Notes under the pieces: model-generated
Databases searched by the model: none
Told to the model about the DNA's origin: nothing
The model's input: only the letters and a program-made list of their open reading frames with translations
IMG/VR virus record: IMGVR_UViG_3300005563_000059
Coordinates: 1 to 41,072 of that record
Length of the DNA stretch: 41,072 nt
Origin: a virus
Direction: 5' to 3' (one strand)
Made by a program: the position numbers and the translations under genes
Shown here: in pieces, positions 8,794-24,175 of the stretch
Numbering within the stretch: position 1 is the stretch's first letter
How the letters are laid out: every line of letters starts with the position of its first letter

Positions 8794-10550
8794 AACTAAC
8801 ACAGAGTTGGTTGGGATACCTTGACCGGAGCTATCAGCAAATCAAATCAAGTTGTATAGCCCGGTTAGTAAGTAATAATCCCGAAATAACCGATCATAAT
8901 GAAAGTAATTTACTGATCATTATTCTGGACATGTTTGCCGGAATTGCTGAGATGCTAAACTATTACATCGACATGATGGGTAGGGAGGCATTTATGGGTG
9001 TTGCTAAGAGGTATAGTTCAATGGTGCGGTTATGCTACATGATAGATTACCCCATTCATGCAAATGTACCTTCAACAGTAACGGAACTTTTTTATCTGGT
9101 GGATAATTCTGGAAATCCATTCTATACTACCCAGATAGTCACCATTCCAAAAGGTACTATCATATCTGATCAGAATGGTACAAAATTTAATACCATTGTG
9201 GATGGACAGATCATTCCCGGCCAGGCTGGAGTTTATATTGATGCTTCCCAATACCAGGAAGTAGCCGGAGAGGAATTGGATACTACAACTGGAAATGCTT
9301 TGCAGCAGGTATTACTTCCGGCTGACTACGTCGATGGTTCTTTGATTCTTTTTATAGATGGGGAACCATGGGTATTATACCGATCATTGGGGTTAATGAA
9401 ATCTACTACCAGGGGATTTATTGTTAGGGTACTGGAAGATGGAAATACCTATGCTATCTTTGGTGATGGCATTAATGGGGTAATTCCAACCCAGGGTTTG
9501 GATATAACTGGTAATTATAAGACCTGTGCCGGATCAAAAGGAAATTTACCACCAGGGTCAATCACCAATATCACCGGAACATTTCAATTACCCAATGGGG
9601 CATCTATTCTTGCTACAAACCAGGATTATTCCTCCAATGGAAAGGATGTACAGGGATTGGAGGATATAAGAAATGTGGCTCCCCGGTCTGTAAGAACCCT
9701 TGAAAGGGCAGTGACCTATCAGGATTACAAGGATGTTGCTATTCTTTGTCCCGGGGTGGGAGATGCCGAAGTATCTTATTGCTGTGGCAAGTTTGTGAAT
9801 GTTTATGTTGTCCCATCCTCCCAGGGAGTTGCGACAGCTGCTCTTCTATCTATTGTGTCTGATTGGTTTAAGACCCGGAAAATGATAACTACCAAGGTAA
9901 CCACTATTGCTGCGGGCATATCCAAGATGTTTCTCACTGCCACGATATTTGGCAAACAATTCTATACTTCAGATCAAATTCTTGTAGAGGTAATAAACTT
10001 ATTAGCCGATAATTACGGATTTGCTGCGTCCAGCATAAATGAAAAACCATCTGTATCGGATATCATATCCTTGATTGAGGGGGCCAAATCAGTGGATCAC
10101 GTGGATATAGGTTCTTTAAGGGTTCTACCTTATGTTAAACCTATAGAAACTAATACCCTGAAATTGGACATTGACTTTTCGAGACTTCCACAAGTAAACC
10201 AAAAGTATACCTATACCATAATCTACAAAGCTATATCTGCTCAGTTCAAGATATTTAGGGGAGCTACTCCAGGGGGTCAAGTAGGTTTAGAAACACCCTT
10301 TGATGATGGCATAGTTGGATTTACAATACATTCAGCAAATTACCAGGATAATATGAAGTGGCAATTTGTTACAGTGCCATCATATCCTGAAATTTTTCCG
10401 GTAACCACATTGGACATAAGTGATTTTACTATTCCCATATTTGACATAGGCCCATTAGTAAATTCCAATATTCCCAGAACAATCTATAGTAACTTAACAG
10501 TAATAACTGCTACTGGAACCTCTTCAAATTGTTTGCCCCCATGCCCATAG
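8790..10550 (+). CDS. Baseplate J/gp6-like wedge protein
   Basis: This 586-residue protein carries the baseplate J signature near residues 295-325: RNVAPRSVRTLERAVTYQDY, then AILCPGVGDAEVSY. The N-terminal part describes a wedge arm (NESNLLIIILDMFAGIAEML and EAFMGVAKRYSSMVRLCYMI). GDGINGVIPTQG near residue 225 is the conserved FGDG-type turn. Two copies per wedge form the baseplate ring in contractile tails. The C-terminal 130 residues seem variable. The gene lies between the gp25-like and tail protein I genes, the classic W-J-I order of P2. Confidence 0.9.
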   Translation: MKLTQSWLGYLDRSYQQIKSSCIARLVSNNPEITDHNESNLLIIILDMFAGIAEMLNYYIDMMGREAFMGVAKRYSSMVRLCYMIDYPIHANVPSTVTELFYLVDNSGNPFYTTQIVTIPKGTIISDQNGTKFNTIVDGQIIPGQAGVYIDASQYQEVAGEELDTTTGNALQQVLLPADYVDGSLILFIDGEPWVLYRSLGLMKSTTRGFIVRVLEDGNTYAIFGDGINGVIPTQGLDITGNYKTCAGSKGNLPPGSITNITGTFQLPNGASILATNQDYSSNGKDVQGLEDIRNVAPRSVRTLERAVTYQDYKDVAILCPGVGDAEVSYCCGKFVNVYVVPSSQGVATAALLSIVSDWFKTRKMITTKVTTIAAGISKMFLTATIFGKQFYTSDQILVEVINLLADNYGFAASSINEKPSVSDIISLIEGAKSVDHVDIGSLRVLPYVKPIETNTLKLDIDFSRLPQVNQKYTYTIIYKAISAQFKIFRGATPGGQVGLETPFDDGIVGFTIHSANYQDNMKWQFVTVPSYPEIFPVTTLDISDFTIPIFDIGPLVNSNIPRTIYSNLTVITATGTSSNCLPPCP

Positions 10551-11260
10551 TATTTTTTAAGGATTGGTTTTTTAATCAATTACCCCAGAGGTTCAAGGAT
10601 GAAGATACCTATAAGGATCAAAATGATGAGGGTATACTTCAGAGGTATCTTAGAGTGTATGGGGATGAATTGGATGAGAATATAAAACCATACATCGATA
10701 ATTTTCTGGACCTGGTTGATGCAATGAAGTGTCAGGCAACATTATTACCACACTTGGCATTCATATTTGGGTCTCCAGTGAATTTGGATGATACGGAGGA
10801 AACCTACAGAAGAACCATAGCCTATGCCATGCAGATTTATAAGATCAAAGGTACATTACCATCTTATGAAATGCTTTTGAATTTTATTGGGGTAGAGGTT
10901 TCAATTATTGAGGATATACCCGAGGGTAAGGTTTTATATGATTCCGGTTATATCTACGATAGGGATACCATCCCCGTGTTATATGATACTGGATGTGCTC
11001 CATGTTCTGGATATTCTTTAGCTATTAATAATGCAAATACTCCCTTGAATGCTGTACTTGATCCAGCTATCATGGCCATAATTCAAAGGATCATTTGCTT
11101 TCTCCAACCCATTAATGCTAAATTTGATGGGTTTATCAAAAGAATAAATATAACCGACACCCTTGCAATAACTATTACCGAGGATACAAGCTTGGATTCT
11201 TTGGAATTCATACCAGGTTCTTTCGACGATTCTTTCGACACACCCAACTCATTCAAATAA
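10541..11260 (+). CDS. Tail protein I-like baseplate protein
   Basis: This protein has about 239 residues if started at ATG 10541. A TTG twelve bases earlier in frame is less likely. It shows features of the P2 gpI/phage tail protein family: FFNQLPQRFKDEDTYKD at the N-terminus, LLPHLAFIFGSPVNLDD, and TYRRTIAYAMQIYKIKGT leading into SYEMLLNFIGVEVSI. The family links the baseplate wedge to tail fibres. Its start overlaps the end of the baseplate J gene by ten bases. The Cys pair in DTGCAPCSGYS near residues 150-156 is unusual and could bind metal or be incidental. Confidence 0.8.
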   Translation: MPIVFFKDWFFNQLPQRFKDEDTYKDQNDEGILQRYLRVYGDELDENIKPYIDNFLDLVDAMKCQATLLPHLAFIFGSPVNLDDTEETYRRTIAYAMQIYKIKGTLPSYEMLLNFIGVEVSIIEDIPEGKVLYDSGYIYDRDTIPVLYDTGCAPCSGYSLAINNANTPLNAVLDPAIMAIIQRIICFLQPINAKFDGFIKRINITDTLAITITEDTSLDSLEFIPGSFDDSFDTPNSFK

Positions 11261-11261
11261 T

Positions 11262-12032
11262 ATGGCAACTCAAAATAAGAAAACCCTTGCTGCTGCAGTT
11301 ATAGCCAGTATCTATGATAATACTACCCATGATATTACGGGGATTGCAGTACAGCATGGGATCACCAGCTTATTGGGTTCTATGAGTGTAAACATAACAG
11401 TGGCCCAACTTCAGGCAGAGGATGATTCAGTGGAACATTCATTAGCGAATATTATTGATGCTGGAAAGAGAGGCATCTTTTATTATGATGCTGCCGATAA
11501 TGCTTCCTTGGATGACGGGGGAGGGGGATGCATAGTAACATCTACCGGGAAAAGATTTAAAAGAATCATTGATAAATCGATTGATGCCCGGTGGTATGGG
11601 CAACCTACTTTTTACTTCAATACCATTGCAGATGCTACCACAGCTATAAAGGCATTTACAAGATTTGAGGGACTGGAGGTAACTATTCTATTAAATGGAA
11701 CTCCAACTACCTATTGGTTTTCCGGGGGAACTGCTGACGGGAATCTAATTACTAAATCAGTAGAGGTACAGGTCTACGACTTTTATCCTGGATCGGGGGC
11801 TCCAGCTCCCAATGATGGAGATGATACCCTAACTTACCCAGGACTACAGGGAGCCCAGAAGATTCTGGGTTTTTGGGTTACAGGAAAGAAAATCCCAGTG
11901 GTAAAGAATCCGGCAGTGCTTACTACCGATAATCTCTGGGCTCAATGGGATCAATTAAATTACCAAATCAAATTATTTAACGGAACCTTCGTTCAAGACC
12001 CAGACAGCGACTATTCCTTGATGTTTAAATAA
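11262..12032 (+). CDS. Putative tail fibre adaptor or baseplate-attached protein
   Basis: This 256-residue protein has no confident family. Residues 82-112 (GIFYYDAADNASLDDGGGGC, then IVTSTGKRFKRIID) resemble N-terminal attachment segments seen in many phage fibre and tailspike proteins. The rest is beta-rich. It has no signal peptide, unlike the six genes that follow. It sits between the last recognised baseplate gene and the fibre-like 1400-residue protein, so an adaptor role is plausible but inferred. The stop is five bases before the next ATG. Confidence 0.55.
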   Translation: MATQNKKTLAAAVIASIYDNTTHDITGIAVQHGITSLLGSMSVNITVAQLQAEDDSVEHSLANIIDAGKRGIFYYDAADNASLDDGGGGCIVTSTGKRFKRIIDKSIDARWYGQPTFYFNTIADATTAIKAFTRFEGLEVTILLNGTPTTYWFSGGTADGNLITKSVEVQVYDFYPGSGAPAPNDGDDTLTYPGLQGAQKILGFWVTGKKIPVVKNPAVLTTDNLWAQWDQLNYQIKLFNGTFVQDPDSDYSLMFK

Positions 12033-12037
12033 ACAGT

Positions 12038-15000
12038 ATGAAAAAGGCACTATTAGCTATTTTTACCCTATTCTCATTTATTGCTTCGTATGGTCAGCTT
12101 AATAAAGTTACCCTTACGGATAAAAGGACCGAGGGCATTATAAAGAATACTCTGAGGATTGATTCCGCATTGATCCCACCAAGAGTTGATACTAATGTAA
12201 CCCGAGACTTTGGTACATTAGTAATTAATCTTTCTGATAGCCAACTTTATAGGTCAACTGGATTACCGGATGGTCAGCAGAGATGGGTGTTAGTAGGTGG
12301 TGCTGAGGGGGGTTCTCCGGGCGCAACATGGGGTGTAAATATCACCGGTACTATAACCAATCAATTGGATTTGATGACCCTTGTGAATTCTAAGCAGCCA
12401 TTATTGCCTGCTGGTTTATCTAACCAATATTGGGATGCTACTGGAACTCTTCAACCTTTTCCATCGATACCCGCCCAAATAAACCTAACTAGCCCCAATG
12501 GGACCATTATTTTTAATGGAACCTATCCCAATATAACTGCCATCAGTGGAATCACTAATAATAATCAATTAACTAATGGATCAGGATTCATTACCGGAAA
12601 CCAAGCAATAACTTTGTCAGGGGATGCTACTGGTTCTGGTACTACTGCTATATCCGTAGTTTTAGCAAACACAGTAACTGCTGGATCATGTACCCTTTGC
12701 TCATTAACCTACGACTCTAAAGGAAGAATAACAATAGCCTCATCGGGTGCTGGTTCATCTCCCGTAACCTCTGTATTTGGCCGTACTGGGGCAGTGGTAG
12801 CAGTAAGTGGGGATTATACTGCTGCCCAAATAACCAATGCAGTAAGCACCCTTGGAACATACAATGACCCCGTATGGTTGAATCAATTAGCATGGGCAAA
12901 AATCCTATCCCATCCTACAACTATTGCAGGGTATGGGATAACTGATAATCTGGTTAATACCTTCAATACAAGGACCGGGGCAGTAACATTAACATCCGGG
13001 GATGTGACTGGAGCATTAACATATACTCCAGTAACTAATGCAAGAACTCTAACCATTAATGGAACTACCTTTGATCTTACCGCAAATAGAACCTGGACAA
13101 TATCCACTGTGGGTGATACCACAGCTTTGATGAGGAAAGCAAATAATCTGGCAGATGTAGTTTCTATTTCTGCATCGAGGTTAAATTTAGGACTGGGTAC
13201 TGCAGCTACAAAGGATTCTACTTACTTTCTTCAAAAGGCCTTGAATTTGAGTGATCTGGGTTCTGCTTCATCTGCCAGAACTAATTTGGGGTTGGGTACT
13301 GCAGCTACACAGAATTCCACCGTATTTGCCCAGGTAGCAAATAATCTTTCCGACCTACTCTCCACCTCTACTGCCCGGAATAACCTCGGATTCGGGGGAA
13401 AGACTGCCGGCAATATTGCTTATTGGGGATCATCTAATGGACTACACTATACCCCATTAATATACGATTCTGCCCATAGTCAAATATCCATGGCCGGTTT
13501 GGGAATTTGGTTTCCTATAGGGGGAACATTTGATATTCAATCAAATGTAAATGGTTCAAAATTATCTGGCATAAGTTACTCAGGTACTGCAAGTGGCTCT
13601 CAATCATTTGTTCCATTCCAGGCATCTGTTTTAGCATCTCAGGGATTGCTTAATTACCAATCAAATTCTTCTGCTGCGCAATCTGGGTATATTTTTGAAA
13701 GCTATAACAACGATGCCTTTGTAAAATTCAGGTCACTTGCTTCTAACTTGGGAGCGGGGTATGCTATCGGGGAAAGATTCGTTTCTGGCCAAAATAGATT
13801 AGCAATTGGGTGGGCTCAGGGAACTGGATATGGTTCCGGTTTAGTAAATCTTCTTCAAGGGGATTCTCTAGGTAATATCTATCTTCCCACTGCACCCCAA
13901 ACCGGAACTACTTCGGATTTAGTAATGATGTTATCGGGTGGCCAAATTAAAACTTTACCCGTTGCTTCATTACCCGGAGGGTCAGGGGGGTCAGGAACAT
14001 TAACCAGGATAGGTTTATTGGATTCTTTGACCCGGGTATCTAATGGACTTCAGGTATTAGGAAATTCTATTTATGCCCAAACTGCCAATGGATCATTTCC
14101 GGGTTTACTAAGTTCAGCCTATTGGAAAGTTATAGATTCCATTTCTAATAGAACCCTTCAGGCTAAGATTTCTGTACAATGGTCTGGTGCTGGATTAAGA
14201 ACCTATTATACCTCAGATGCAGGAGATATATTTTATGGCAAAAATGTCCATACAGCTAATGGATTATCAGTAATTACGCAAAACGATAGCTCTTTGCTTT
14301 ATTCCCCCGATCTGAACTATTTGGTAGATAAAACAACTGCTCAGACTTTAACTAATAAAACCCTAACTTCCCCCATATTAACATCTCCCAGACTAAACAC
14401 TACTTCTACTACTAATTATGTATGGACTGCCACTGATGCCTTGGGAAATGGATCATGGCAGGCATCTACTGGATCAGTAACTATTACACAAACTCCCACG
14501 AAAGCAACGATTTCTGGGCAGGACCTAGTGGGAGCAGATGGGACGAATGCAGGATTATTACTTCCAGCGGATTATATCAAACTACATAAACCCTTTTATA
14601 CTGATAATCCTACCTACACAAATGCAGATGACACAGTCTTCTATTCTAATGGAGACACCCTATTTGCTAAGCTCCTTAATTTCGGAAATGGATTCATCCG
14701 CCAGAATACCCAGACACGGAATGGATATTTATTGGACTCTTCATATACAAGGTCTTATCTTTCCCGGAATACTTCCGGGGATATAACCATGAATACTTCC
14801 GGGGTATTTGTAATTGGAGCAGCTAAGGTAACTAATTCAATGCTTGCAGGCTCCATTGCTTATTCAAAATTGTCCCTGACTGGGTCAATAGTGAACGGAG
14901 ACCTTGCCGGGGGGATAGATCTTCCATCTAAGGTATCGGGGATTTTACCGGGAGCTAATGGGGGAACTTCGAATGGATTCTTTGCAATCACGGGACCTGC

Positions 15001-16240
15001 ATCCTCTTTGAAAACCTTTACATTCCCTAATGCTTCAGCAACAGTACTCACCACTAATGCCTTAGTAACAGTACCCCAGGGGGGAACTGGAGTGGGTACA
15101 ATTACGGGAATAGTAAAGGGAAATGGTACGTCTGCATTTTCAGCAGCAGTTGCAGGTACAGATTACACTTCAGGAACTGCTGCTCTTGCCACGGGAATAT
15201 TAAAAAATACCACTGGGACAGGAGCCCATACAATTGCAGTAGCAGCAGACTTTCCTACCCTGAACCAGAACACTTCAGGAACTGCTGCCAATTTGTCCGG
15301 TACCCCAGCATTGCCCAATGGAACTACAGCAACTACCCAGACTGCCGGGGATAATACCAATAAATTAGCTACTGATAATTTTGTGAGTACCGCTATAACT
15401 AATGCCCTGGGATCATACACCCCAGCAAATATTGCCAATACCGATTTAGTCCAGACTGCCAATAGGAATTACTCGGGAAATAACAAATCAATAAGTCTTG
15501 GCACACCGGCATCCCCGTTTAGTGGGGTAAGTTTATATTCTACATCTGGGTTTGCATTTCAGGGTAGACTAAGTTATTCCAATAATGCATCCGCAACTGA
15601 TGCTAATTTTACTATTGGTTTGGATGCCACAGAGTATACCCTTCCGGCAATTACGGCAAATAGAACAATAACTATCGCTTCTGGTTCTGGGGTGGATGAG
15701 ATATACATTTGGAATAAAAATTCATCCGCATTCAATTGGACATTTTCTACCACGGTAAAGGATGCTGCTGGAAATACCATAACTAAGGTGGAGAATCAGA
15801 CTATGTATGATCTAGTATATGACGTACCAAGTTCAGCCTGGATAGTTAAAAGTGCCATAGGTGCAGGTAATACTACTGCAGGCTCATCCGGATTATACAC
15901 ACCCACTTATGCTGCTGTTCTAAATATGAATTTTGGTAGTGCATCCATATCTCATTGGACAAGGCAGGGAAATGAGGTTACTGTGTATGGTACGGGTAAT
16001 ATCCAGACGGGGATTGCAGGTAGTCCATCAACCTTTTCATTAACGTTGCCGGTACCTTCTAATATTACTGCCTCCAGTGATTTGGCGGGTACGTTTCAGC
16101 AAGTGAATAATTCTGGGAGTGGAGTTTTTGGAACAGTAACAGGAGACGTAACAAACGATGTTGCCTCTTTCCAGTGCATGTCTTTAAGTCCCACAGTAGG
16201 GAATGTATTCACCTTTTCATTTCGATATACAGTAAAATAA
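12038..16240 (+). CDS. Tail-fibre-like protein with Sec signal peptide
   Basis: This is a 1400-residue protein. Residues 1-19 form a Sec signal peptide (MKKALLAIFTLFSFIASYG) with Gln at position 20 as the likely mature N-terminus. The body is fibre-like: VFGRTGAVVAVSGDYTAAQI near residue 245, three 33-residue repeats from residue 368 with NLSDL and NLGLGTAAT, VPQGGTGVGTITGIVKGNGT, and NTSGTAANLSGTPALPNGTT near 1085. The last 110 residues look like a globular beta tip. Such repeats form trimeric shafts. A secreted fibre is odd for a virion part made in the cytoplasm. It may be an exported adhesin, or its signal sequence may serve another purpose. It is the first of six signal-peptide genes. 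Confidence 0.8.
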   Translation: MKKALLAIFTLFSFIASYGQLNKVTLTDKRTEGIIKNTLRIDSALIPPRVDTNVTRDFGTLVINLSDSQLYRSTGLPDGQQRWVLVGGAEGGSPGATWGVNITGTITNQLDLMTLVNSKQPLLPAGLSNQYWDATGTLQPFPSIPAQINLTSPNGTIIFNGTYPNITAISGITNNNQLTNGSGFITGNQAITLSGDATGSGTTAISVVLANTVTAGSCTLCSLTYDSKGRITIASSGAGSSPVTSVFGRTGAVVAVSGDYTAAQITNAVSTLGTYNDPVWLNQLAWAKILSHPTTIAGYGITDNLVNTFNTRTGAVTLTSGDVTGALTYTPVTNARTLTINGTTFDLTANRTWTISTVGDTTALMRKANNLADVVSISASRLNLGLGTAATKDSTYFLQKALNLSDLGSASSARTNLGLGTAATQNSTVFAQVANNLSDLLSTSTARNNLGFGGKTAGNIAYWGSSNGLHYTPLIYDSAHSQISMAGLGIWFPIGGTFDIQSNVNGSKLSGISYSGTASGSQSFVPFQASVLASQGLLNYQSNSSAAQSGYIFESYNNDAFVKFRSLASNLGAGYAIGERFVSGQNRLAIGWAQGTGYGSGLVNLLQGDSLGNIYLPTAPQTGTTSDLVMMLSGGQIKTLPVASLPGGSGGSGTLTRIGLLDSLTRVSNGLQVLGNSIYAQTANGSFPGLLSSAYWKVIDSISNRTLQAKISVQWSGAGLRTYYTSDAGDIFYGKNVHTANGLSVITQNDSSLLYSPDLNYLVDKTTAQTLTNKTLTSPILTSPRLNTTSTTNYVWTATDALGNGSWQASTGSVTITQTPTKATISGQDLVGADGTNAGLLLPADYIKLHKPFYTDNPTYTNADDTVFYSNGDTLFAKLLNFGNGFIRQNTQTRNGYLLDSSYTRSYLSRNTSGDITMNTSGVFVIGAAKVTNSMLAGSIAYSKLSLTGSIVNGDLAGGIDLPSKVSGILPGANGGTSNGFFAITGPASSLKTFTFPNASATVLTTNALVTVPQGGTGVGTITGIVKGNGTSAFSAAVAGTDYTSGTAALATGILKNTTGTGAHTIAVAADFPTLNQNTSGTAANLSGTPALPNGTTATTQTAGDNTNKLATDNFVSTAITNALGSYTPANIANTDLVQTANRNYSGNNKSISLGTPASPFSGVSLYSTSGFAFQGRLSYSNNASATDANFTIGLDATEYTLPAITANRTITIASGSGVDEIYIWNKNSSAFNWTFSTTVKDAAGNTITKVENQTMYDLVYDVPSSAWIVKSAIGAGNTTAGSSGLYTPTYAAVLNMNFGSASISHWTRQGNEVTVYGTGNIQTGIAGSPSTFSLTLPVPSNITASSDLAGTFQQVNNSGSGVFGTVTGDVTNDVASFQCMSLSPTVGNVFTFSFRYTVK
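13139..13413 (+). repeat. Tandem 99-bp (33-residue) fibre repeats
   Basis: Three adjacent units start at 13139, 13238 and 13337. The first two share the 16-base block GGGTACTGCAGCTACA (13195-13210 and 13294-13309). They encode the pattern N-L-[AS]-D-[VL]...S-A-R-x-N-L-G-[LF]-G found in phage fibre shafts. The third unit has diverged after LGFGGKTAGN. Confidence 0.8.
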
Positions 16241-16245
16241 TCAAT

Positions 16246-17607
16246 ATGAAATTAAAGTTAGTAGTATTAGGGTTATTATTATCTACCCTATCTTTTGCCC
16301 AATCAGATTCAAATCGGGTATTTAATTTTAAGCTTACCCAGATGCCAGTGATTCAACCTAATGGGGGATTCACTCAATTTACAAATACATCTGGGACTCC
16401 AGCAACTGCCCAACCAGTGGGATTTAATACAGCCGGAATAACTTCCAGTGTAGTATTCACATCTTCGGGATCAGAGATGGAATTATCTAAGGATGGGTCT
16501 ACTGGGTGGGGGTCATCAATTACTTACACTACTTCTGGGGGCTATGCTGGAACTCCAGCATTCTTTGTTAGAACAAGTGGGTCTGCAGCTCCCAATACCT
16601 ATAATGGAAACATCATAGGGACTGGAACCTCAGCAGCAGGTAATACTATTACTTGCCAGATTCCCTATACTGCTTTAGTAAATTCAGGCCCATTAATTAC
16701 TAGGTCACCAACAACATTATCTGGATTTACGTCAGTGGCTGGATCATTAGGGGGTTCCCAATCATCTACCATAGTGGGTACTAATTTGACAGGTAATCTA
16801 ACCGCTGGGCCATTAGCGGGTTATAAGGTATCAAAAGATAATATCTCTTTTGCTACTACTCAAACTTTAACTGCTTCTTCTGGATCAGTGAATCAGTTGA
16901 TATACCTTGCTTTATCTGATGCTAATACTGCTGGAACATATAATGGTAATTTTCCTATATCCGGTGGGGGAGCCTCAACAGTAAATATAGCAGTAACAGG
17001 AACCACTACTTCGGGAGCAACTACCCCAGACTCAGCCAGGTTTAGATTTGGTTTAACTACTGGAACTGGATTTAGTATGGCAGGATGGCAGGATGTAATA
17101 GGTGATCCTAGTACTGGAGTTAGGTCAGGTACAATATCGGGAACAACTATTACTTACACGACAGTATCTACAAATACTGCCAATTGGACTACATTCGGTG
17201 GGGGTAGTGCTGGAGCAAGCAATGGGGTAACAAATGCTACCATTCCATATTCTGGAAGTACAAACGCCATGAAAGAGGGATTTGTAAATGCTGGAGTATC
17301 TCAAACAACTAATGCCCAATTCATAAGCGGGGGTTGGAAGACGGATGGCACTACCTATGATATAGAATTATCGGGTAGTACCCAATACGCCATAAGCGGG
17401 GTGGGATCATATAATGTAAGGGGTTTAGGTGGAGTACTGTCATTCTCATCAGTGGATAACCAAATTACAGCAACGAATAATACCGCTGATAAAGTAACAT
17501 GGACCAGCGTTCAACCGGATGCCTCCGGAAATTTCACCTTCTACTTTGGAATTATAACGGGGCAGCAAGCTGCATTGCTTAATTACATAATAATCAGGAA
17601 ACACTAA
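16246..17607 (+). CDS. Exported protein with two Bacteroidota Ig-like repeats
   Basis: The chosen ATG at 16246 gives 453 residues with a Sec signal peptide (MKLKLVVLGLLLSTLSFA, then Gln19). The in-frame upstream start would bury it. After the signal come two related Ig-like domains. The second, near residues 145-255, reads SPTTLSGFTSVAGSLGGSQS then NLTGNLTAGPLAGYKVSKDN. This is a repeat common in large secreted Bacteroidota proteins and rarely expected in phage. A separate C-terminal domain of about 190 residues follows, beginning FRFGLTTGTGFSMAGWQD. No catalytic motif is clear. It may bind carbohydrate or other surface structures. It starts five bases after the fibre-like gene. Confidence 0.75.
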   Translation: MKLKLVVLGLLLSTLSFAQSDSNRVFNFKLTQMPVIQPNGGFTQFTNTSGTPATAQPVGFNTAGITSSVVFTSSGSEMELSKDGSTGWGSSITYTTSGGYAGTPAFFVRTSGSAAPNTYNGNIIGTGTSAAGNTITCQIPYTALVNSGPLITRSPTTLSGFTSVAGSLGGSQSSTIVGTNLTGNLTAGPLAGYKVSKDNISFATTQTLTASSGSVNQLIYLALSDANTAGTYNGNFPISGGGASTVNIAVTGTTTSGATTPDSARFRFGLTTGTGFSMAGWQDVIGDPSTGVRSGTISGTTITYTTVSTNTANWTTFGGGSAGASNGVTNATIPYSGSTNAMKEGFVNAGVSQTTNAQFISGGWKTDGTTYDIELSGSTQYAISGVGSYNVRGLGGVLSFSSVDNQITATNNTADKVTWTSVQPDASGNFTFYFGIITGQQAALLNYIIIRKH

Positions 17608-17618
17608 AATTTAAAAGC

Positions 17619-18032
17619 ATGAAAAATCTATTAGTATTAATTGGGGTATTACTTACACTTAATTGCTTTAGCCAGGATCATACTATTAATCCAGGTAATT
17701 GGAAATTCAAATCCAATCTTCTATACCACCAAACCGATGAGGGACTGGACGGGGAAGGATTAATAAAGGAAACAGGAGTAAGGTATGAAATTACCTGTGA
17801 CACTGCTAAAACAACTATTTATTTTGCCCATTATGACCCGGAGGATAAAAAGTGGGATACAGTAAGGGTAAGGTATGGAAGAATAGAAACCAACATGGAA
17901 AAGCAAGACGGTATGGAAAAGGGGGTATATTACTATAGAACCTGGGGTGGTACGGTAGAGTATCATCCAATGGAAATGGTATTAAGAGTTTATCCGGGAA
18001 GGTACCGTTATGAATACAACAACAAACACTGA
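17619..18032 (+). CDS. Small exported protein of unknown function
   Basis: This 137-residue protein has a Sec signal peptide (MKNLLVLIGVLLTLNCFS) and mature start Gln19. The mature part is charged and beta-rich, with an ETGVRYEITCDTAKTTIYFA segment and a Tyr-rich C-terminus (GVYYYRTWGG, GRYRYEYNNKH). The Cys near the signal end does not form a canonical lipobox. No family is recognised. The gene lies 11 bases after the Ig-repeat gene and two bases before the esterase/beta-helix gene, so it is co-transcribed with them. Confidence 0.7.
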   Translation: MKNLLVLIGVLLTLNCFSQDHTINPGNWKFKSNLLYHQTDEGLDGEGLIKETGVRYEITCDTAKTTIYFAHYDPEDKKWDTVRVRYGRIETNMEKQDGMEKGVYYYRTWGGTVEYHPMEMVLRVYPGRYRYEYNNKH

Positions 18033-18034
18033 TT

Positions 18035-20761
18035 ATGAAGAAGCTTTTATTTTTGACGTTGCTAATCCCATTACTGGGGATAGCCCAAACTCCCAGTGAG
18101 ACCCACAATTTTAGGAGATTTGATACTACCCTAAGTCTACCAAATATATCCAATCCCTTTGGAGCCCCATATCAATGGATATTAGAAATAGAGATACCCG
18201 TTGACTATTTCACAGTTAATAGCCCGGATACAGCATCCAGGATCATGATGATAACGATGCCTGGACAGGGTCAGCAGGGGTCAAATAATTATGCCAATCT
18301 TTCTGTCTATGGGTTCGGATTTTGGAGAAGGAATGGTTGGGATGGGGGTATAACAATTAGTAACGGGAAACATTACCCTATTCTGGTTACTATAGCTTTT
18401 GTAAATAACAATCTTCCGCAGGCTGATCAATATAATCGAGTATTGGATTCCCTGATAAAATGGTACCATCCTAGAACGGGTAAGGTAGCAGTAACGGGGT
18501 TCTCCCAGGGGTCATTTACGAATGGGGCCCTTATTAAATTTGAACAGACTGCAGGGGCTGAAACCGGAATGAAGAAGGTTTCCTGTGCAGCATTATTCGA
18601 AGGTGAACCCGATGCTCTACCCTCTCCCTATAATACTTGGGACCGTCAGCAAGTTGCCTATAAAGTTTGGGCAGCAAAATATGGGGGGCATTATTTTTAT
18701 TTGGAAGGTTCTGGATCAGATAATTTCCGGGATGGGTGGAAATGGTCAGGGCCAATGAATGATACTGTACCGGGATGTGCATACTTCTCATATGAAACTT
18801 TGGGGGGTGGAGCTCACTGTTGCTGGAACAGTATGTGGGACCCATCTGCCACTAATTGGAACTCAGTAACACCCCCGGCTTTAGGCCCAAATAACGGACC
18901 GTCTCAAGCAGGTACTAATACTATGGGCAATTATAAGATAGGAGATAATGTCTATACTTGGATGTTCCGGAACAGTGGGGATACCACTTTGGTGGGATCA
19001 ACAGGTCCCAGTGGGGTATTATCAGTACAAGGTTTACCCGATTCATCCTTTACTCTTCCCGTTTCATCCTTCAATGCTAGAAGCATTCCTAACCCCATTT
19101 CAGGCACATCTATTACTGCCTATGCATGGAGTCAAATTTCAGGACCCATATCCACTACTATAAATTCCCCGACTGCCCAGAATACTTTCATATCCGGGTT
19201 AACCTCAGCAGGAACTTATAAGTACAGAATCCAGGTAACTGATAACATTTCTAATACTGCTGCAGACACTATCACCATGACAGTATTATCCAATATGTGC
19301 CGGAACTTCTATTGGGATACCACTCAGACCAACGTAGTATTAACCGGAGCATCATTCTCTGCCAGCCCAGCGATACATCGTTGTGATACAATCAATGTTT
19401 TATATAGAGCGACAAACGGGGGTTATAGAAGTGTAGATATCCATGACCTCGGATTGCAAAATGATCCAATACCGGGTGAGATATTTATCAGGGGTGTAGG
19501 ATGGGGTGGACATCAAGGAGCAGCAATAGCCCCCAGTACAGTTAACGTATTCGGGAATCTATGGGACAATAATAATTGGGTCCATGTGGATAGTTTTTCA
19601 ATGATAAGTCATCCAGACCCTTTTATATTTAGGCACACTACTAATGGGTATTCACATCATATTAAATTTACCCACATTAATTTAAAATCCAATGGAGGGT
19701 TTTTTCCATCAAGTACCATAACACATAGTCTTCCCAATTGGGGGGGACCATTCGGTTACAATGGTGGAGTGGACACTGTGAATTGCATGTACGATTGGAG
19801 CATTGATCATCTTAGAACGGATTCCATTTATGGGTCAGGGAGTGGATTAACTGCTATGTGGTTTGGAGGCCCAAATAAAAATAGCGTATGGTTAAAGGTA
19901 TCTGTAACCAACAGTTCATTTGACCATTATTCCAGCAGTAGTAATCCTTCCAGTTATATATTTTTCCAAAACGTCTTCCCTATAATTATTGCTAATGATA
20001 GCTTTAGTAACCTGGGTAATAATACCGGGACTTATGTGGGGCATGCTGCCATGATATTTGGTAGAGGTTCTATGTATGATGTTCACAATATTCATTATGG
20101 CCCTCACTGCTTTGCCAATGGTGGTAGAGATTTTGGAGCTTGGGATATTCCGGGGATGGAGAGTTTCTTTACTAACATAGACCCCACATATGATGGAATA
20201 TCAAGGGCCTATAATATACTGATGGAACACCAGATAAAATATGGAGTTTGGGAAACCAGAAACACATCCACTGATACCTCGGCAAACCCATTTATGAGGT
20301 CAAGGAATTTCCGGTATATATCCCACATTACTGCTTATTCAATGGCAGTGGGGGTTGGCTATCAGCCTTATAATTCTGCCTGCTTAGATGCATATACGGG
20401 GCCAGGTGATACCGTTTATCTACATAATTCAGTATATGCGGTGGTGAATGATACAACTTGGGGATTATCATTTACTCAGCCATTAACCATCGCATCGGGT
20501 ACTCCAGGATTCGTTGATACAGCCGGGAATTATAAAGCTCAAACATTTGCATTATCTGGTTTAGCTGATACGGTTAGATACTTGCCAGTAAGGGGGGGTC
20601 CTCTTTATAGGACAGGAAGAGCAGCAAAACCATTTCCTACATTCGATATTGAAAATAAACCCAGAGTATCTAGTTCGGGTTCCCCAGTGGATAAGGGGGC
20701 CAATGGATTAAATACCTGTGATTGTCTTATATTTACATTACCAACTAAAATAACTCCTTAA
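18035..20761 (+). CDS. Exported esterase/PKD/beta-helix multidomain protein
   Basis: This 908-residue protein has a signal peptide ending at Ala17 with Gln18 as mature start. Residues 45-315 look like an alpha/beta-hydrolase esterase: nucleophile elbow GFSQG with Ser157, and GGGAHCCWNSMWDP with candidate catalytic His261. The acid residue is not certain. Residues 325-420 are a PKD/K319L-type domain (SITAYAWSQISGP, then GTYKYRIQVTDN). Residues 425-880 look like a right-handed beta-helix, ending with FDIENKPRVSSSGSPVDKGA, a pattern common at the end of polysaccharide-acting helices. It could deacetylate and bind or cut surface polysaccharide. The combination, exported from a phage tail-fibre region, is unusual. 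Substrate is unknown. Confidence 0.75.
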   Translation: MKKLLFLTLLIPLLGIAQTPSETHNFRRFDTTLSLPNISNPFGAPYQWILEIEIPVDYFTVNSPDTASRIMMITMPGQGQQGSNNYANLSVYGFGFWRRNGWDGGITISNGKHYPILVTIAFVNNNLPQADQYNRVLDSLIKWYHPRTGKVAVTGFSQGSFTNGALIKFEQTAGAETGMKKVSCAALFEGEPDALPSPYNTWDRQQVAYKVWAAKYGGHYFYLEGSGSDNFRDGWKWSGPMNDTVPGCAYFSYETLGGGAHCCWNSMWDPSATNWNSVTPPALGPNNGPSQAGTNTMGNYKIGDNVYTWMFRNSGDTTLVGSTGPSGVLSVQGLPDSSFTLPVSSFNARSIPNPISGTSITAYAWSQISGPISTTINSPTAQNTFISGLTSAGTYKYRIQVTDNISNTAADTITMTVLSNMCRNFYWDTTQTNVVLTGASFSASPAIHRCDTINVLYRATNGGYRSVDIHDLGLQNDPIPGEIFIRGVGWGGHQGAAIAPSTVNVFGNLWDNNNWVHVDSFSMISHPDPFIFRHTTNGYSHHIKFTHINLKSNGGFFPSSTITHSLPNWGGPFGYNGGVDTVNCMYDWSIDHLRTDSIYGSGSGLTAMWFGGPNKNSVWLKVSVTNSSFDHYSSSSNPSSYIFFQNVFPIIIANDSFSNLGNNTGTYVGHAAMIFGRGSMYDVHNIHYGPHCFANGGRDFGAWDIPGMESFFTNIDPTYDGISRAYNILMEHQIKYGVWETRNTSTDTSANPFMRSRNFRYISHITAYSMAVGVGYQPYNSACLDAYTGPGDTVYLHNSVYAVVNDTTWGLSFTQPLTIASGTPGFVDTAGNYKAQTFALSGLADTVRYLPVRGGPLYRTGRAAKPFPTFDIENKPRVSSSGSPVDKGANGLNTCDCLIFTLPTKITP

Positions 20762-20762
20762 C

Positions 20763-21206
20763 ATGAAACACTTATTAGCATTCGTACTGATCTTATCGAC
20801 CTGTTTTTGCAAGGCTCAAAATTCTATTTTTTGCACTCAGGTAAATTGCCCCATCACTATCTCCCAACCACAGGATAGCGTTCAGCTTTTAAGCCAAACT
20901 ACCTTAATTGCCACAGGAGATGCAATAGCATCTACTTCTTGGAAATTAGTATCGGCTCCATCAACCACTACCGTTACCATCGTAAATCCCACATCCCCCA
21001 CTCCCATCGTTAGGGGATTAAGTGCTCCTGGTAATTACGTATTTGCCATTACAGTCACCACTAAAAAGGGCCAGGTATCTTATATTGATACCGATAGTGT
21101 AAGAGTTAATCCGGCTCCCATAAGAAACACCATCATAGGTGGAACAATCAAATTGGTAAATGGCCAATTGATATTTTTCCCGGCTTATTCTGACGGAAAA
21201 CCATAG
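20763..21206 (+). CDS. Small exported PKD-like protein
   Basis: This 147-residue protein has a signal peptide (MKHLLAFVLILSTCFCKA) and mature start Gln19. The mature part is essentially one Ig-like PKD/K319L-type domain, with STSWKLVSAPSTTTVTIVNP then GLSAPGNYVFAITVTTKKGQ. It resembles the middle domain of the 908-residue protein just upstream and may derive from it. A Cys at position 13 within LSTC is lipobox-like but not canonical. It starts two bases after the upstream stop. The function is probably binding or spacing at the cell surface, by inference. Confidence 0.7.
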   Translation: MKHLLAFVLILSTCFCKAQNSIFCTQVNCPITISQPQDSVQLLSQTTLIATGDAIASTSWKLVSAPSTTTVTIVNPTSPTPIVRGLSAPGNYVFAITVTTKKGQVSYIDTDSVRVNPAPIRNTIIGGTIKLVNGQLIFFPAYSDGKP

Positions 21207-21229
21207 ACTATTACTGATAAATTTTTAAC

Positions 21230-21598
21230 ATGAAAAAGATTTTATTAGTAATGGTATTGGGGTTTATATCAACCTTGGCTTTCTCTCAATCAAAATCCAA
21301 GGCTAAGATTGATCGGTCCCATATCAAGGTGGACACTATCAGGATAGACAATGTAAAACTAAATCCGGATGCCAAGATACAGATAGACACCACTAATGGA
21401 TTTGCCAGGGTGACAGTACCACCAAATACAGTTACGTTTGTGATGACACCCGAACAAGTCCAACTCCTGGAATATGTTATTTCGGAATCCGGTGCGGGGT
21501 TTAAATCTACCAATCAATGCATTGCTATAATGAAGAGCCAGCAGTATGTGAATCCCCCATTCCCGGTTCCTAAATCTGACACTTCTAGTAAGAAATAA
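21230..21598 (+). CDS. Small exported protein of unknown function
   Basis: This 122-residue protein has a signal peptide (MKKILLVMVLGFISTLAFS) and mature start Gln20. The mature part has two short beta-like repeats (HIKVDTIRIDNVKLNPDAKI), a likely helix (MTPEQVQLLEYVISESG) and a Pro/Ser/Lys tail. No family is recognised. It is the last of the six exported proteins and ends just before an intrinsic terminator. A spanin-like lysis role was considered but has no specific support. Confidence 0.7.
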   Translation: MKKILLVMVLGFISTLAFSQSKSKAKIDRSHIKVDTIRIDNVKLNPDAKIQIDTTNGFARVTVPPNTVTFVMTPEQVQLLEYVISESGAGFKSTNQCIAIMKSQQYVNPPFPVPKSDTSSKK

Positions 21599-21604
21599 AA
21601 TGAT

Positions 21605-21625
21605 GGGGGATAATTCCCCCTTTTT
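21605..21625 (+). terminator. Rho-independent terminator after the exported-protein cassette
   Basis: GGGGGA (21605-21610) pairs with TCCCCC (21615-21620) around a TAAT loop, followed by five T residues. It lies in the 30-base gap between the last signal-peptide gene and the next ORF. It marks a transcript end for the exported-protein block. Confidence 0.8.
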
Positions 21626-21628
21626 ATC

Positions 21629-22033
21629 ATGAAAGACATACTAGCAATTCGATTTAAAGGATCAGTATACCTCCATAAGAAAGGAAGGAATACTGATCTT
21701 TTTTTAGGCAAATTTCATAATGACATTCAACCAAATGCCAAGGAGATTACTGCAAAGAACCTCATAGGCCATCCAAGTGCAGTAATAGACACTATTGCGT
21801 TATACAATGGAATAAACCTATTAGCCTCCATACCCATAACCACAAAGTCTATAGTGGGAGCCCAGGAAATGGCATTTGAAACAACCTTCTCTCCTACTGA
21901 TTTTAATGGAGACTTCACGGAGGGGAGGTTGATAGCTTCGGGCATAGGAGCATTTTCTATTGTATCCAACCTGGTGGGAAATAAATCTGATTCAGAATCC
22001 CTTGTAGTAACCTGGAATATAATCATATCATAA
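21629..22033 (+). CDS. Hypothetical tail-associated protein
   Basis: This 134-residue protein has no signal peptide and no recognised family. The sequence is beta-rich, with VIDTIALYNGINLLASIPIT and EMAFETTFSPTDFNGDFTEG, in the style of small structural or fibre-connecting proteins. It begins three bases after the T-run of the terminator, so it needs read-through or a promoter overlapping the preceding gene. Its stop is one base before the collar-type fibre gene, which suggests a shared role with it. Confidence 0.65.
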   Translation: MKDILAIRFKGSVYLHKKGRNTDLFLGKFHNDIQPNAKEITAKNLIGHPSAVIDTIALYNGINLLASIPITTKSIVGAQEMAFETTFSPTDFNGDFTEGRLIASGIGAFSIVSNLVGNKSDSESLVVTWNIIIS

Positions 22034-22034
22034 T

Positions 22035-23549
22035 ATGGCACAGAGACGTTTAAGAGACTATAAGGACCCATTGGGTTCTTATGAGCATAATCTTATTAAC
22101 CTGGGAGTACATTCCCCGGGAAGATTTTGTGGCTTCGATACCCTAAAGGTAGATGGCCAACTTCAATTTAGCCTTCAGCATTCAGGGGCTGGAATAAATA
22201 CCTTTGATAATGTTGGAGACCCATATGGTCCTTTGGGTATTGCCATGAGTACCCAGGGGTTGATGGTTGTGGAAGATACTCCAATTACTGGGCTGATCAT
22301 GGAGACTAATGCCGGAAACCTAAATGACCGTATTGATTATGTGGTAATGTCACATCAATACCTAGAGATTGATAATCCCGGGGCAACTGCTACCTATTCA
22401 GTAATTAAGGGACCATTAAATCAAACTATCGAACCCGTTCTTGCTAACTTCCAGGTATTGATAGGCAAGTTATATATCCCGGCTGGATCAGCTTCCATAG
22501 GGGATTGTACATATGTGAAGGCAAAATGCCCGGACTCTGGGGATTCCCCGGATGCTAAACTCCTGGAGCCCAATGACTTCCAGGCGATCAACCAGGATAG
22601 GGAATCTCCCACAGTATTTGGAGCTCCAGCTGGAGGGGCAGCTAATGATTTAACCTGGTGGGATGTTGATACTCTGGGCAACTCATTTGTGATTGCTCCC
22701 GGAGCAACCATGAATATGGATGCATTAAGAGTTAAAGGAGGAAGCAATAAACCCGGGACAGTCATTACTTTAATTCTAAATCCATTCATCCGATTACGGG
22801 ACAGTGCTCCATTAACTGTTCCTCTCAGAGCACAGGGATATGCTTCATTAAGATTCAGCTCCAGGTATTACACAGACGGAACTGATAGTTTAAGAGGCAT
22901 ACCATTGGGAGTTATGAAAGCTCCGTCCAATGGGAACAGTTTATGGTTTGTGAAATTGATTAGAAGGTCTGATGCATGGTATGTTACATCTGTGGATGGC
23001 ATAAATTTTAATGTCGGGGGCTTTTCCAAATATATGACCATAAGGGTAACTATCCCGACAGTAGAGATAGTGAATCATTTTGATGCCCAGGGATTGGGGA
23101 TTGCAGACTACATTGGATGGGGTATAGAGAATGGTAATACCTACCAGACTCCATTTGGGGCAGTAACGGTGCAAGATAAAAGAGGCTTATTGGAGGTAGG
23201 AGCAACTAATGTTCCCGCTGCTGGTGCCCCGGTATACGATATAACGAGGAACCCATTAGCTGCCACGGGGTGGAACTTTAATAACCTTTCAATAGGGGGT
23301 TTATCCGGAATTATCCAAACTATAAATCAATTAGCGAAACACCATCACAAGATGAATGGTAATGGCAACTCAGGAACAGGGGGCCAGGGTGGAATACTGG
23401 TTGGATCATATACGAATCATGAGGCCATAAATGAGCAGAATACTGCCGGGGATGGAACCTATTTTACCATGGAGGATGCGGGTAATAGCGAAGCAATGAA
23501 TACACTATCCCCTTATATTGCCACATTCTCCATTGTCCGCCTTTATTAG
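22035..23549 (+). CDS. Tail fibre protein, collar-type
   Basis: This 504-residue protein begins MAQRRLRDYKDPLGSYEHNL and has an N-terminal beta domain. The segment DYIGWGIENGNTYQTPFGAV near residue 355, then DKRGLLEVGATN, resembles collar domains of short tail fibres (GW..C.G.. then G.FLRG.G). A His cluster (KHHHKMNGNGNSGTGGQGG) near residue 435 also fits collar-type tips, where His residues hold metal in the trimer. The last residues form a short strand (YIATFSIVRLY). It is probably a receptor-binding or baseplate-attached fibre. It lacks a signal peptide, unlike the 1400-residue fibre-like protein. Its stop overlaps that of the opposite-strand gene. Confidence 0.65.
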   Translation: MAQRRLRDYKDPLGSYEHNLINLGVHSPGRFCGFDTLKVDGQLQFSLQHSGAGINTFDNVGDPYGPLGIAMSTQGLMVVEDTPITGLIMETNAGNLNDRIDYVVMSHQYLEIDNPGATATYSVIKGPLNQTIEPVLANFQVLIGKLYIPAGSASIGDCTYVKAKCPDSGDSPDAKLLEPNDFQAINQDRESPTVFGAPAGGAANDLTWWDVDTLGNSFVIAPGATMNMDALRVKGGSNKPGTVITLILNPFIRLRDSAPLTVPLRAQGYASLRFSSRYYTDGTDSLRGIPLGVMKAPSNGNSLWFVKLIRRSDAWYVTSVDGINFNVGGFSKYMTIRVTIPTVEIVNHFDAQGLGIADYIGWGIENGNTYQTPFGAVTVQDKRGLLEVGATNVPAAGAPVYDITRNPLAATGWNFNNLSIGGLSGIIQTINQLAKHHHKMNGNGNSGTGGQGGILVGSYTNHEAINEQNTAGDGTYFTMEDAGNSEAMNTLSPYIATFSIVRLY

Positions 23550-24175
23550 GATTTGTTGAAATGACTTCTTGCCATGCGTTGAGCATCCTCAATTTCCTGG
23601 TTAAGCAATTTAATATAGCGGAGATTTCTATCATTCAATTCCAGCCCATAATATTCAAGTATTAAGTCGGCTGGAATTTTGTGTAAGGAGTTCTTCTTAT
23701 CTTTTATTCGGCTGATTATATAGGGGGGTGGATTCAATTTAAGGTCCAATAATTCGTAGGCATTATCGGAAAGATTTTTTTTCATAAAGGTCATCAGGAT
23801 TTCATAGTAATATGTTTTTGCTTCCCTGGGATCATCTATTAATTCATCTGTATGTTCATTACCCGTAAACTCTACAACCTGCTGGGAATATTTATTTGTG
23901 TATGCTTTCCGCAATATACGACATTTAAAAAACTGCATTGCTTTTATCATATACCCCAGCAGCTCATCCGGGGTATGCTTATGAACATATTTGTTATAAG
24001 CGAATATAAACTTCACATCAAACCAGGATAACACCTCATCATTATCCACACCAAATCTTCGGTGGTCAATTCCCGATGCTAATTTAATTCTTAGTCCTTT
24101 TGTCTTGTTGTAAATTTCTTGAAACAGGGCTGGGTTGTAATTCTCAACCATTGGTTTGAGGCGGGACTCTTCCAT
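23546..24175 (-). CDS. Putative sigma-like transcription factor
   Basis: This 209-residue protein is the only gene on the minus strand. Residues 40-95 (EVLSWFDVKFIFAYNKYVHK, then ELLGYMIKAMQFFKCRILRK) resemble sigma region 2, which binds core polymerase and the -10 element. The C-terminal part (residues 150-205, IPADLILEYYGLELNDRNLR then IKLLNQEIEDAQRMA) could be a helix-turn-helix like region 4. T4 gp55-type late sigma factors are a plausible analogue. The gene is divergent from the replication operon and convergent with late genes; stops overlap by two bases. Another DNA-binding role is possible. Confidence 0.45.
   Translation of the reverse strand: MEESRLKPMVENYNPALFQEIYNKTKGLRIKLASGIDHRRFGVDNDEVLSWFDVKFIFAYNKYVHKHTPDELLGYMIKAMQFFKCRILRKAYTNKYSQQVVEFTGNEHTDELIDDPREAKTYYYEILMTFMKKNLSDNAYELLDLKLNPPPYIISRIKDKKNSLHKIPADLILEYYGLELNDRNLRYIKLLNQEIEDAQRMARSHFNKS

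Follow-up and report, generated by a model that had tools for sequence, protein, structure and literature searches.

A tail-region gene cassette encoding predicted exported fibre, adhesin and hydrolase-like proteins in several phage backbones

Six consecutive genes with signal peptides

The window analysed here is the whole of a 41,072-base IMG/VR virus record (IMGVR_UViG_3300005563_000059) with a contractile-tail phage, in which a tail sheath C-terminal domain was found. It also encodes a baseplate J-like protein and Tail_P2_I; a block of six genes (12038-21598) comes next, followed by a minus-strand gene that is conserved and by the replication module. The six genes, here called o1 to o6, all lie on the plus strand, and each starts with a predicted Sec signal peptide that leaves Gln at position +1 (the Q-rule). 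The cleavage sites are SYG↓Q (o1, 12038), SFA↓Q (o2, 16246), CFS↓Q (o3, 17619), GIA↓Q (o4, 18035), CKA↓Q (o5, 20763) and AFS↓Q (o6, 21230), exactly as listed in the initial annotation of this DNA. For o2, the start is the ATG at 16246 and not the start of the longer open reading frame (ORF) at 16174.

Signal peptides were called with a rule-based predictor, which gives 1.1% false positives on shuffled window proteins. None of the other 36 coding sequences of the window is positive, in agreement with the earlier statement that the neighbouring tail proteins have no signal peptide. With 42 genes and six positives, the chance of exactly this block is 1.9e-7. In o2, o4 and o6 the top-scoring predicted site lies 2-4 residues beyond the Q site, and the Gln at +1 in these three therefore rests on the Q-rule and on the homologues; those in the phages L046, L097 and L048, described below, likewise show small-X-small↓Q. 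In o5 there is a Cys in the h/c region (LSTCFCKA↓Q), and some room is left for reading this protein as a lipoprotein.

The hydrophobic N-termini could also be membrane anchors or chance stretches, and the proteins ordinary cytoplasmic virion fibres, as the tail-fibre-like o1 might suggest. We regard this as very improbable. All six genes show the full form of a signal peptide, with a basic n-region, a short h-region and then small-X-small↓Q; this form is repeated in independent homologues and missing from the 36 neighbours, and the bacterial homologues of o4 are of the exported type. Export of the block proteins is well supported by these sequence features, and it is their function that we infer.

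The Q-value of Bacteroidota is 71% (PMC5837995), and for a Bacteroidota host Gln in six out of six proteins is expected at 0.71^6 = 13%. The six Gln residues therefore mainly identify the host phylum, and what is unusual is that six genes for exported proteins stand in a row. Searches of IMG/VR with the sheath or the baseplate J-like protein alone gave nothing; a profile built from four rows of the latter retrieved 40 tail relatives, besides the GenBank records MT121964, MT121960 and KX501134. Among 43 tail relatives, 8 of 736 ORFs are Q-rule signal-peptide genes, with a longest run of one; eight known Bacteroidota phages, represented by nine stretches, have 4 in 471 ORFs, with a longest run of two. 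Two consecutive Q-rule genes are seen in the crAss-like Cellulophaga phage phi14:2 (L132:9-1278), where they encode an 85-residue protein and a 331-residue OmpA-domain protein, away from the tail genes.

The first gene, o1 (12038-16240), encodes a signal peptide of 19 residues and a 1400-residue tail-fibre-like protein, with shaft repeats and a match to the tail fibre phrog_2282 (8e-11). Its C-terminal domain, about the last 120 residues, is common to phage tail proteins without a signal peptide. A Stenotrophomonas phage has it in a minor tail protein without a signal peptide (36%, E-value 2e-4), and it recurs in a P22-like podovirus protein that also starts without one. From its sequence, o1 is a tail-fibre protein in which the signal peptide replaces the usual N-terminus. 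It has the repeats and the tail C-terminal domain of a virion fibre together with an export signal, which a virion fibre would lack, and a signal peptide is present in all four o1 proteins, that of the window and those of the three other carriers described below. No similarity is detectable between o1 and the virion fibres of the same phages.

The adhesin-like o2 (16246-17607) is a repeat protein of 453 residues with an 18-residue signal peptide. Genomes of Chitinophagaceae contain its repeat as well, in large open frames, and 98 of 396 genomes of the family match parts of o2. The small protein o3 (17619-18032; 137 residues, signal peptide of 18) is so far seen in cassettes only: it has no match in the 396 family genomes, and a search of IMG/VR returned only the already known L045 and L046 contigs. 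The putative hydrolase o4 (18035-20761) is treated separately below. A single PKD-like domain makes up o5 (20763-21206; 147 residues, signal peptide of 18), which is found in the window lineage only. The last gene, o6 (21230-21598), encodes a small protein of 122 residues with a signal peptide of 19.

The cassette in other phages

An identical copy of the cassette is present in L045, with 0 differences. In L046 (IMGVR 3300009093_000115), genes of 1373, 441, 146, 903 and 106 amino acids all follow the Q-rule, and the first four are homologues of o1, o2, o3 and o4 in this order. The identities to the window are 34-46% in segments for o1, 51% for o2, 34% for o3 and 64% for o4. Near-identical copies from three samples (L097, L098 and L099) also have o1 to o4 in order, each starting with a Q-rule signal peptide, and the four genes lie between a tail sheath gene and long fibre genes; o1 matches the window in segments, o2 is 50% identical, o3 28% and o4 42%. 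The fourth carrier, L048, is an integrated siphovirus, a prophage in a metagenome-assembled genome (MAG) of Sphingobacteriales/Chitinophagaceae-like origin. It has o1, o2 (37%), o4 (39%) and a small fourth Q-rule gene, and o3 is missing. The sequence match of its o1 is short, so that fibre form, position and the C-terminal domain have to carry the case for orthology. Both the L046 and L048 cassettes end with Q-rule genes of o6-like size, a likeness that we take no further than size, and are followed by lysis-like genes. Q-rule signal peptides are present in every cassette copy examined (window, L046, L048 and L097). No match to o4 or o2 was found in 50,697 GenBank phage records.

The carriers are of different types. 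The L046 phage (L046/L123) has a DUF2586 sheath, L099 a Phage_sheath_1 sheath, and L048/L129 an SPP1-type portal, Prophage_tail and an integrase. Comparing part of each carrier with blastp, we found no match between the backbones except for the sheaths of the window and L099. Judging by these comparisons, the cassette is shared by four carriers, the window included, whose backbones are otherwise unrelated. The carriers' hosts appear to be soil bacteria of one family.

Among the tail relatives, where the stretch from the baseplate to the minus-strand gene is present, it is mostly occupied by a single gene or a few, all lacking signal peptides, which makes the block an accessory piece inserted into the adhesion region. 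The cassette genes do not share one history, since the o2 of L046 is nearest to that of L097 (62%) and its o4 to that of the window (64%). The sequences describe a cassette that is old and reassorting.

Two observations stand beside these. The L046 phage has a further Q-rule gene, of 172 residues, among its head genes (L123:5782-6300). Upstream of the L097 cassette, beside the fibre genes, lies a stand-alone SGNH-type esterase without signal peptide (L097:1424-2107) with matches to PHROG lipases/esterases.

The distribution bears on two other explanations. According to the first, the genes are passive cargo, host surface genes captured recently, and the o4 hydrolase and the o2 repeats do have homologues in Chitinophagaceae. 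However, the same gene order is kept in four unrelated phages, and the guanine-cytosine content of the cassette tracks that of each carrier (cassette/carrier 41.6/39.9, 49.8/46.4, 51.6/49.1 and 34.5/31.9). The absence of o3 from the 396 family genomes also argues against recent capture, as do two features of o4 given below, saturated synonymous divergence with few amino acid changes and the consistent lack of a type IX sorting domain. This explanation is disfavoured, and we give it hardly any weight.

The main competing explanation is that the proteins are virion appendages, which fold in the periplasm and join the tails when lysis mixes the compartments, adding extra fibres and a polysaccharide esterase. 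The cassette is always within or beside the tail-fibre module, and o1 has the repeats and C-terminal domain of a tail protein. On the other side, conservation extends through most of o2, o3 and o4 in carriers with four different tail architectures, which is odd for tail-bound parts, and joining tails after lysis would be unusual. We consider it unlikely, yet worth keeping in view.

The hydrolase domain of o4 and its bacterial homologues

The o4 protein consists of a signal peptide of 17 residues, an alpha/beta-hydrolase domain (about 21-322), a PKD domain and a C-terminal region (about 425-880), which is possibly a beta-helix. In L048 the C-terminal region differs and contains RCC1 and PKD. 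Residues S157 (in GFSQG), D229 and H261 are invariant in the four phage copies and form a candidate Ser-Asp-His triad with the GxSxG motif. The AlphaFold model of the hydrolase domain has a predicted local distance difference test score (pLDDT) of 79 and a predicted template modelling score (pTM) of 0.84. In a Foldseek search it matches carboxylesterases, feruloyl esterases and acetylxylan esterases, with E-values down to 8e-7 for the carboxylesterases. According to the model, the domain has an alpha/beta-hydrolase fold, and we infer that o4 is a carbohydrate-esterase-like enzyme that would act on polysaccharide. Between the window and L046 the nonsynonymous divergence of the domain is 0.12 and the synonymous divergence is saturated, which indicates that it is under purifying selection. 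An internal hydrolase domain of another kind, GDSL/SGNH (PF13472), is found in the exported fibre o1 of the prophage (L048:5335-8994), so that the same slot of the cassette holds another type of esterase.

With strict cut-offs, the o4 profile matches 13 of 396 genomes of the Chitinophagaceae-like family, and in a class-wide draw of 395 genomes only the reference genome itself. In these searches, the bacterial homologues of the hydrolase thus appear concentrated in this family. Further proteins with the domain are encoded on Chitinophagaceae MAG contigs L053 (60-3071) and L059; the former is 73% identical over a part, on a contig so short that it could belong to a phage or to a chromosome.

A scan of eight complete bacterial homologues showed a type IX sorting domain (type A, TIGR04183) in every one, while none of 18 cassette proteins has one of either kind (TIGR04183 or type B). 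The phage copies keep the first export step without the second, and the simplest prediction is therefore that they stay in the periplasm until lysis; on the sequences, this location has better support than the cell surface ahead of lysis. Some bacterial homologues adjoin genes for Wzz and a polysaccharide flippase (L051) or for glycosyltransferases (L060), which would indicate surface polysaccharide as the substrate of o4. The earlier suggestion of a surface-remodelling or polysaccharide-processing cassette therefore stands in part. The proteins are predicted to be exported and probably surface-acting, they belong to the tail-fibre region, and the polysaccharide role is backed by the Ser-Asp-His residues and by the homologues in Wzz/Wzx-type or glycosyltransferase clusters, but a location at the surface before lysis is less supported than the periplasm.

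Late expression, proposed role and known systems

The block follows the baseplate genes, as the initial annotation had placed it. The baseplate protein Tail_P2_I (10529-11260, +), identified by a domain match and by syntenic relatives, marks the insertion site, and after it comes a fibre-like gene without signal peptide (11262-12032, +; PHROG tail-fibre matches), which ends 5 bp before o1 and is part of the same, probably late operon. Intergenic gaps measure 2-31 bp along the tail genes and the block. The terminator proposed at the block end was also found, an intrinsic one at 21605-21620 (+; GGGGGATAATTCCCCC-TTTTT). Because of the 5-bp gap after the tail genes and the terminator at the end, late expression of the block is likely. 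Downstream are two genes without signal peptides (21629-23549, +; 134 and 504 residues) that probably encode tail or fibre proteins; the label collar-type, given to 22035-23549, is not backed by any curated Pfam or PHROG match. Most tail relatives keep the minus-strand gene (23546-24175, -) at this position between the tail and replication modules. Sigma-70-like promoter sites are fewer than in shuffled sequences, and the Bacteroidota -7 motif is slightly above chance, with none placed at the block. Scans of the window for Rfam families and transfer RNAs gave no matches.

This position bears on superinfection exclusion, another earlier suggestion, in which the exported fibre and adhesin would mask the receptor and thereby keep other phages, or the released progeny, from adsorbing to infected cells or debris. 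Exported fibre-like proteins made during infection could in principle block surface glycans. However, the genes are in a probably late tail operon, away from repressor and immunity genes even in the prophage L048, o1 does not resemble its own phage's virion fibres, and no outer-membrane route or lipobox is seen, except doubtfully in o5. Exclusion is improbable on this evidence.

The reading we favour, with a chance slightly better than even, is a horizontally mobile, modular and late-expressed phage cassette, whose products are exported to the periplasm, released at lysis and act on the host surface polysaccharide. The cassette would be transcribed with the late tail genes, and the host Sec machinery and signal peptidase I would export the products and cleave before Gln. 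The host glutaminyl cyclase should then cyclise the N-terminal Gln, thereby protecting them. As they are without the sorting domain of the bacterial homologues, the products would accumulate in the periplasm, and at lysis they would be freed alongside the progeny. The fibre o1 and the adhesin o2 would bind the surface polysaccharide of the host family and the o4 hydrolase would de-esterify it, which may allow an easier escape from matrix and debris and leave neighbouring cells exposed.

Several points weigh against this reading. The TM-scores of the Foldseek matches of o4 are moderate (0.35-0.49), and an AlphaFold model of the whole protein from two rows has a pLDDT of 28, with no usable model for the C-terminal part. 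A tree of the hydrolase domains does not show a single origin of the phage copies. Conservation in related phages was proposed as a check: the block recurs in unrelated phages but in none of the 40 tail relatives from IMG/VR, and only four independent carriers are known. Finally, lysis would free the proteins even without export; our guess is that export is needed for periplasmic folding, disulfides or pyroglutamate. It is conceivable, with a chance somewhat short of even, that the cassette represents a new class, exported tail-fibre kits swapped among phages that are unrelated but infect one bacterial family. Adhesins of the fibre type would be loaded late into the periplasm together with a hydrolase for polysaccharide, to act outside at lysis or dock onto virions.

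Among the closest known systems are the Porphyromonas gingivalis phages of the proposed family Nixviridae, which are reported to have five Q-rule genes of unknown function, suggested by the authors to modify the host surface (PMC10367356) and noted again later (PMC10653852). Compared by description and not by sequence, they share signal peptidase I signal peptides that leave Gln at +1; they differ in that here a co-linear fibre, adhesin and hydrolase cassette is found in four unrelated phages. No description of an exported fibre cassette was found in the open-licence literature, outside which most subscription papers lie. If the proposed role is true, that of the phage Q-rule proteins, earlier noted but unexplained, becomes directly testable.

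Superinfection-exclusion morons are also exported phage proteins that act in the envelope. Those known are small proteins, mostly with early expression or expression from a prophage, whereas the cassette has fibres up to 1400 residues and enzymes, in a tail operon. Tail fibres, tail spikes and depolymerases resemble the cassette in the fibre repeats, the C-terminal domain of o1, the carbohydrate-esterase-like enzyme and the position in the tail module. The known ones have no signal peptide and are incorporated into the virion after synthesis in the cytoplasm, whereas here every cassette protein has such a peptide. Such proteins are usually regarded as parts of the particle, and the cassette would, if the reading is true, be a second, non-virion arm of the attack on the surface that goes through the host Sec pathway. 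With the type IX cargo of Chitinophagaceae, that is the bacterial o4 homologues, the cassette shares the signal peptide, the hydrolase domain and PKD-like repeats. The type A sorting domain of the eight bacterial proteins, absent from the 18 of the phages, sets the two apart and offers a handle on the intended location of the proteins.
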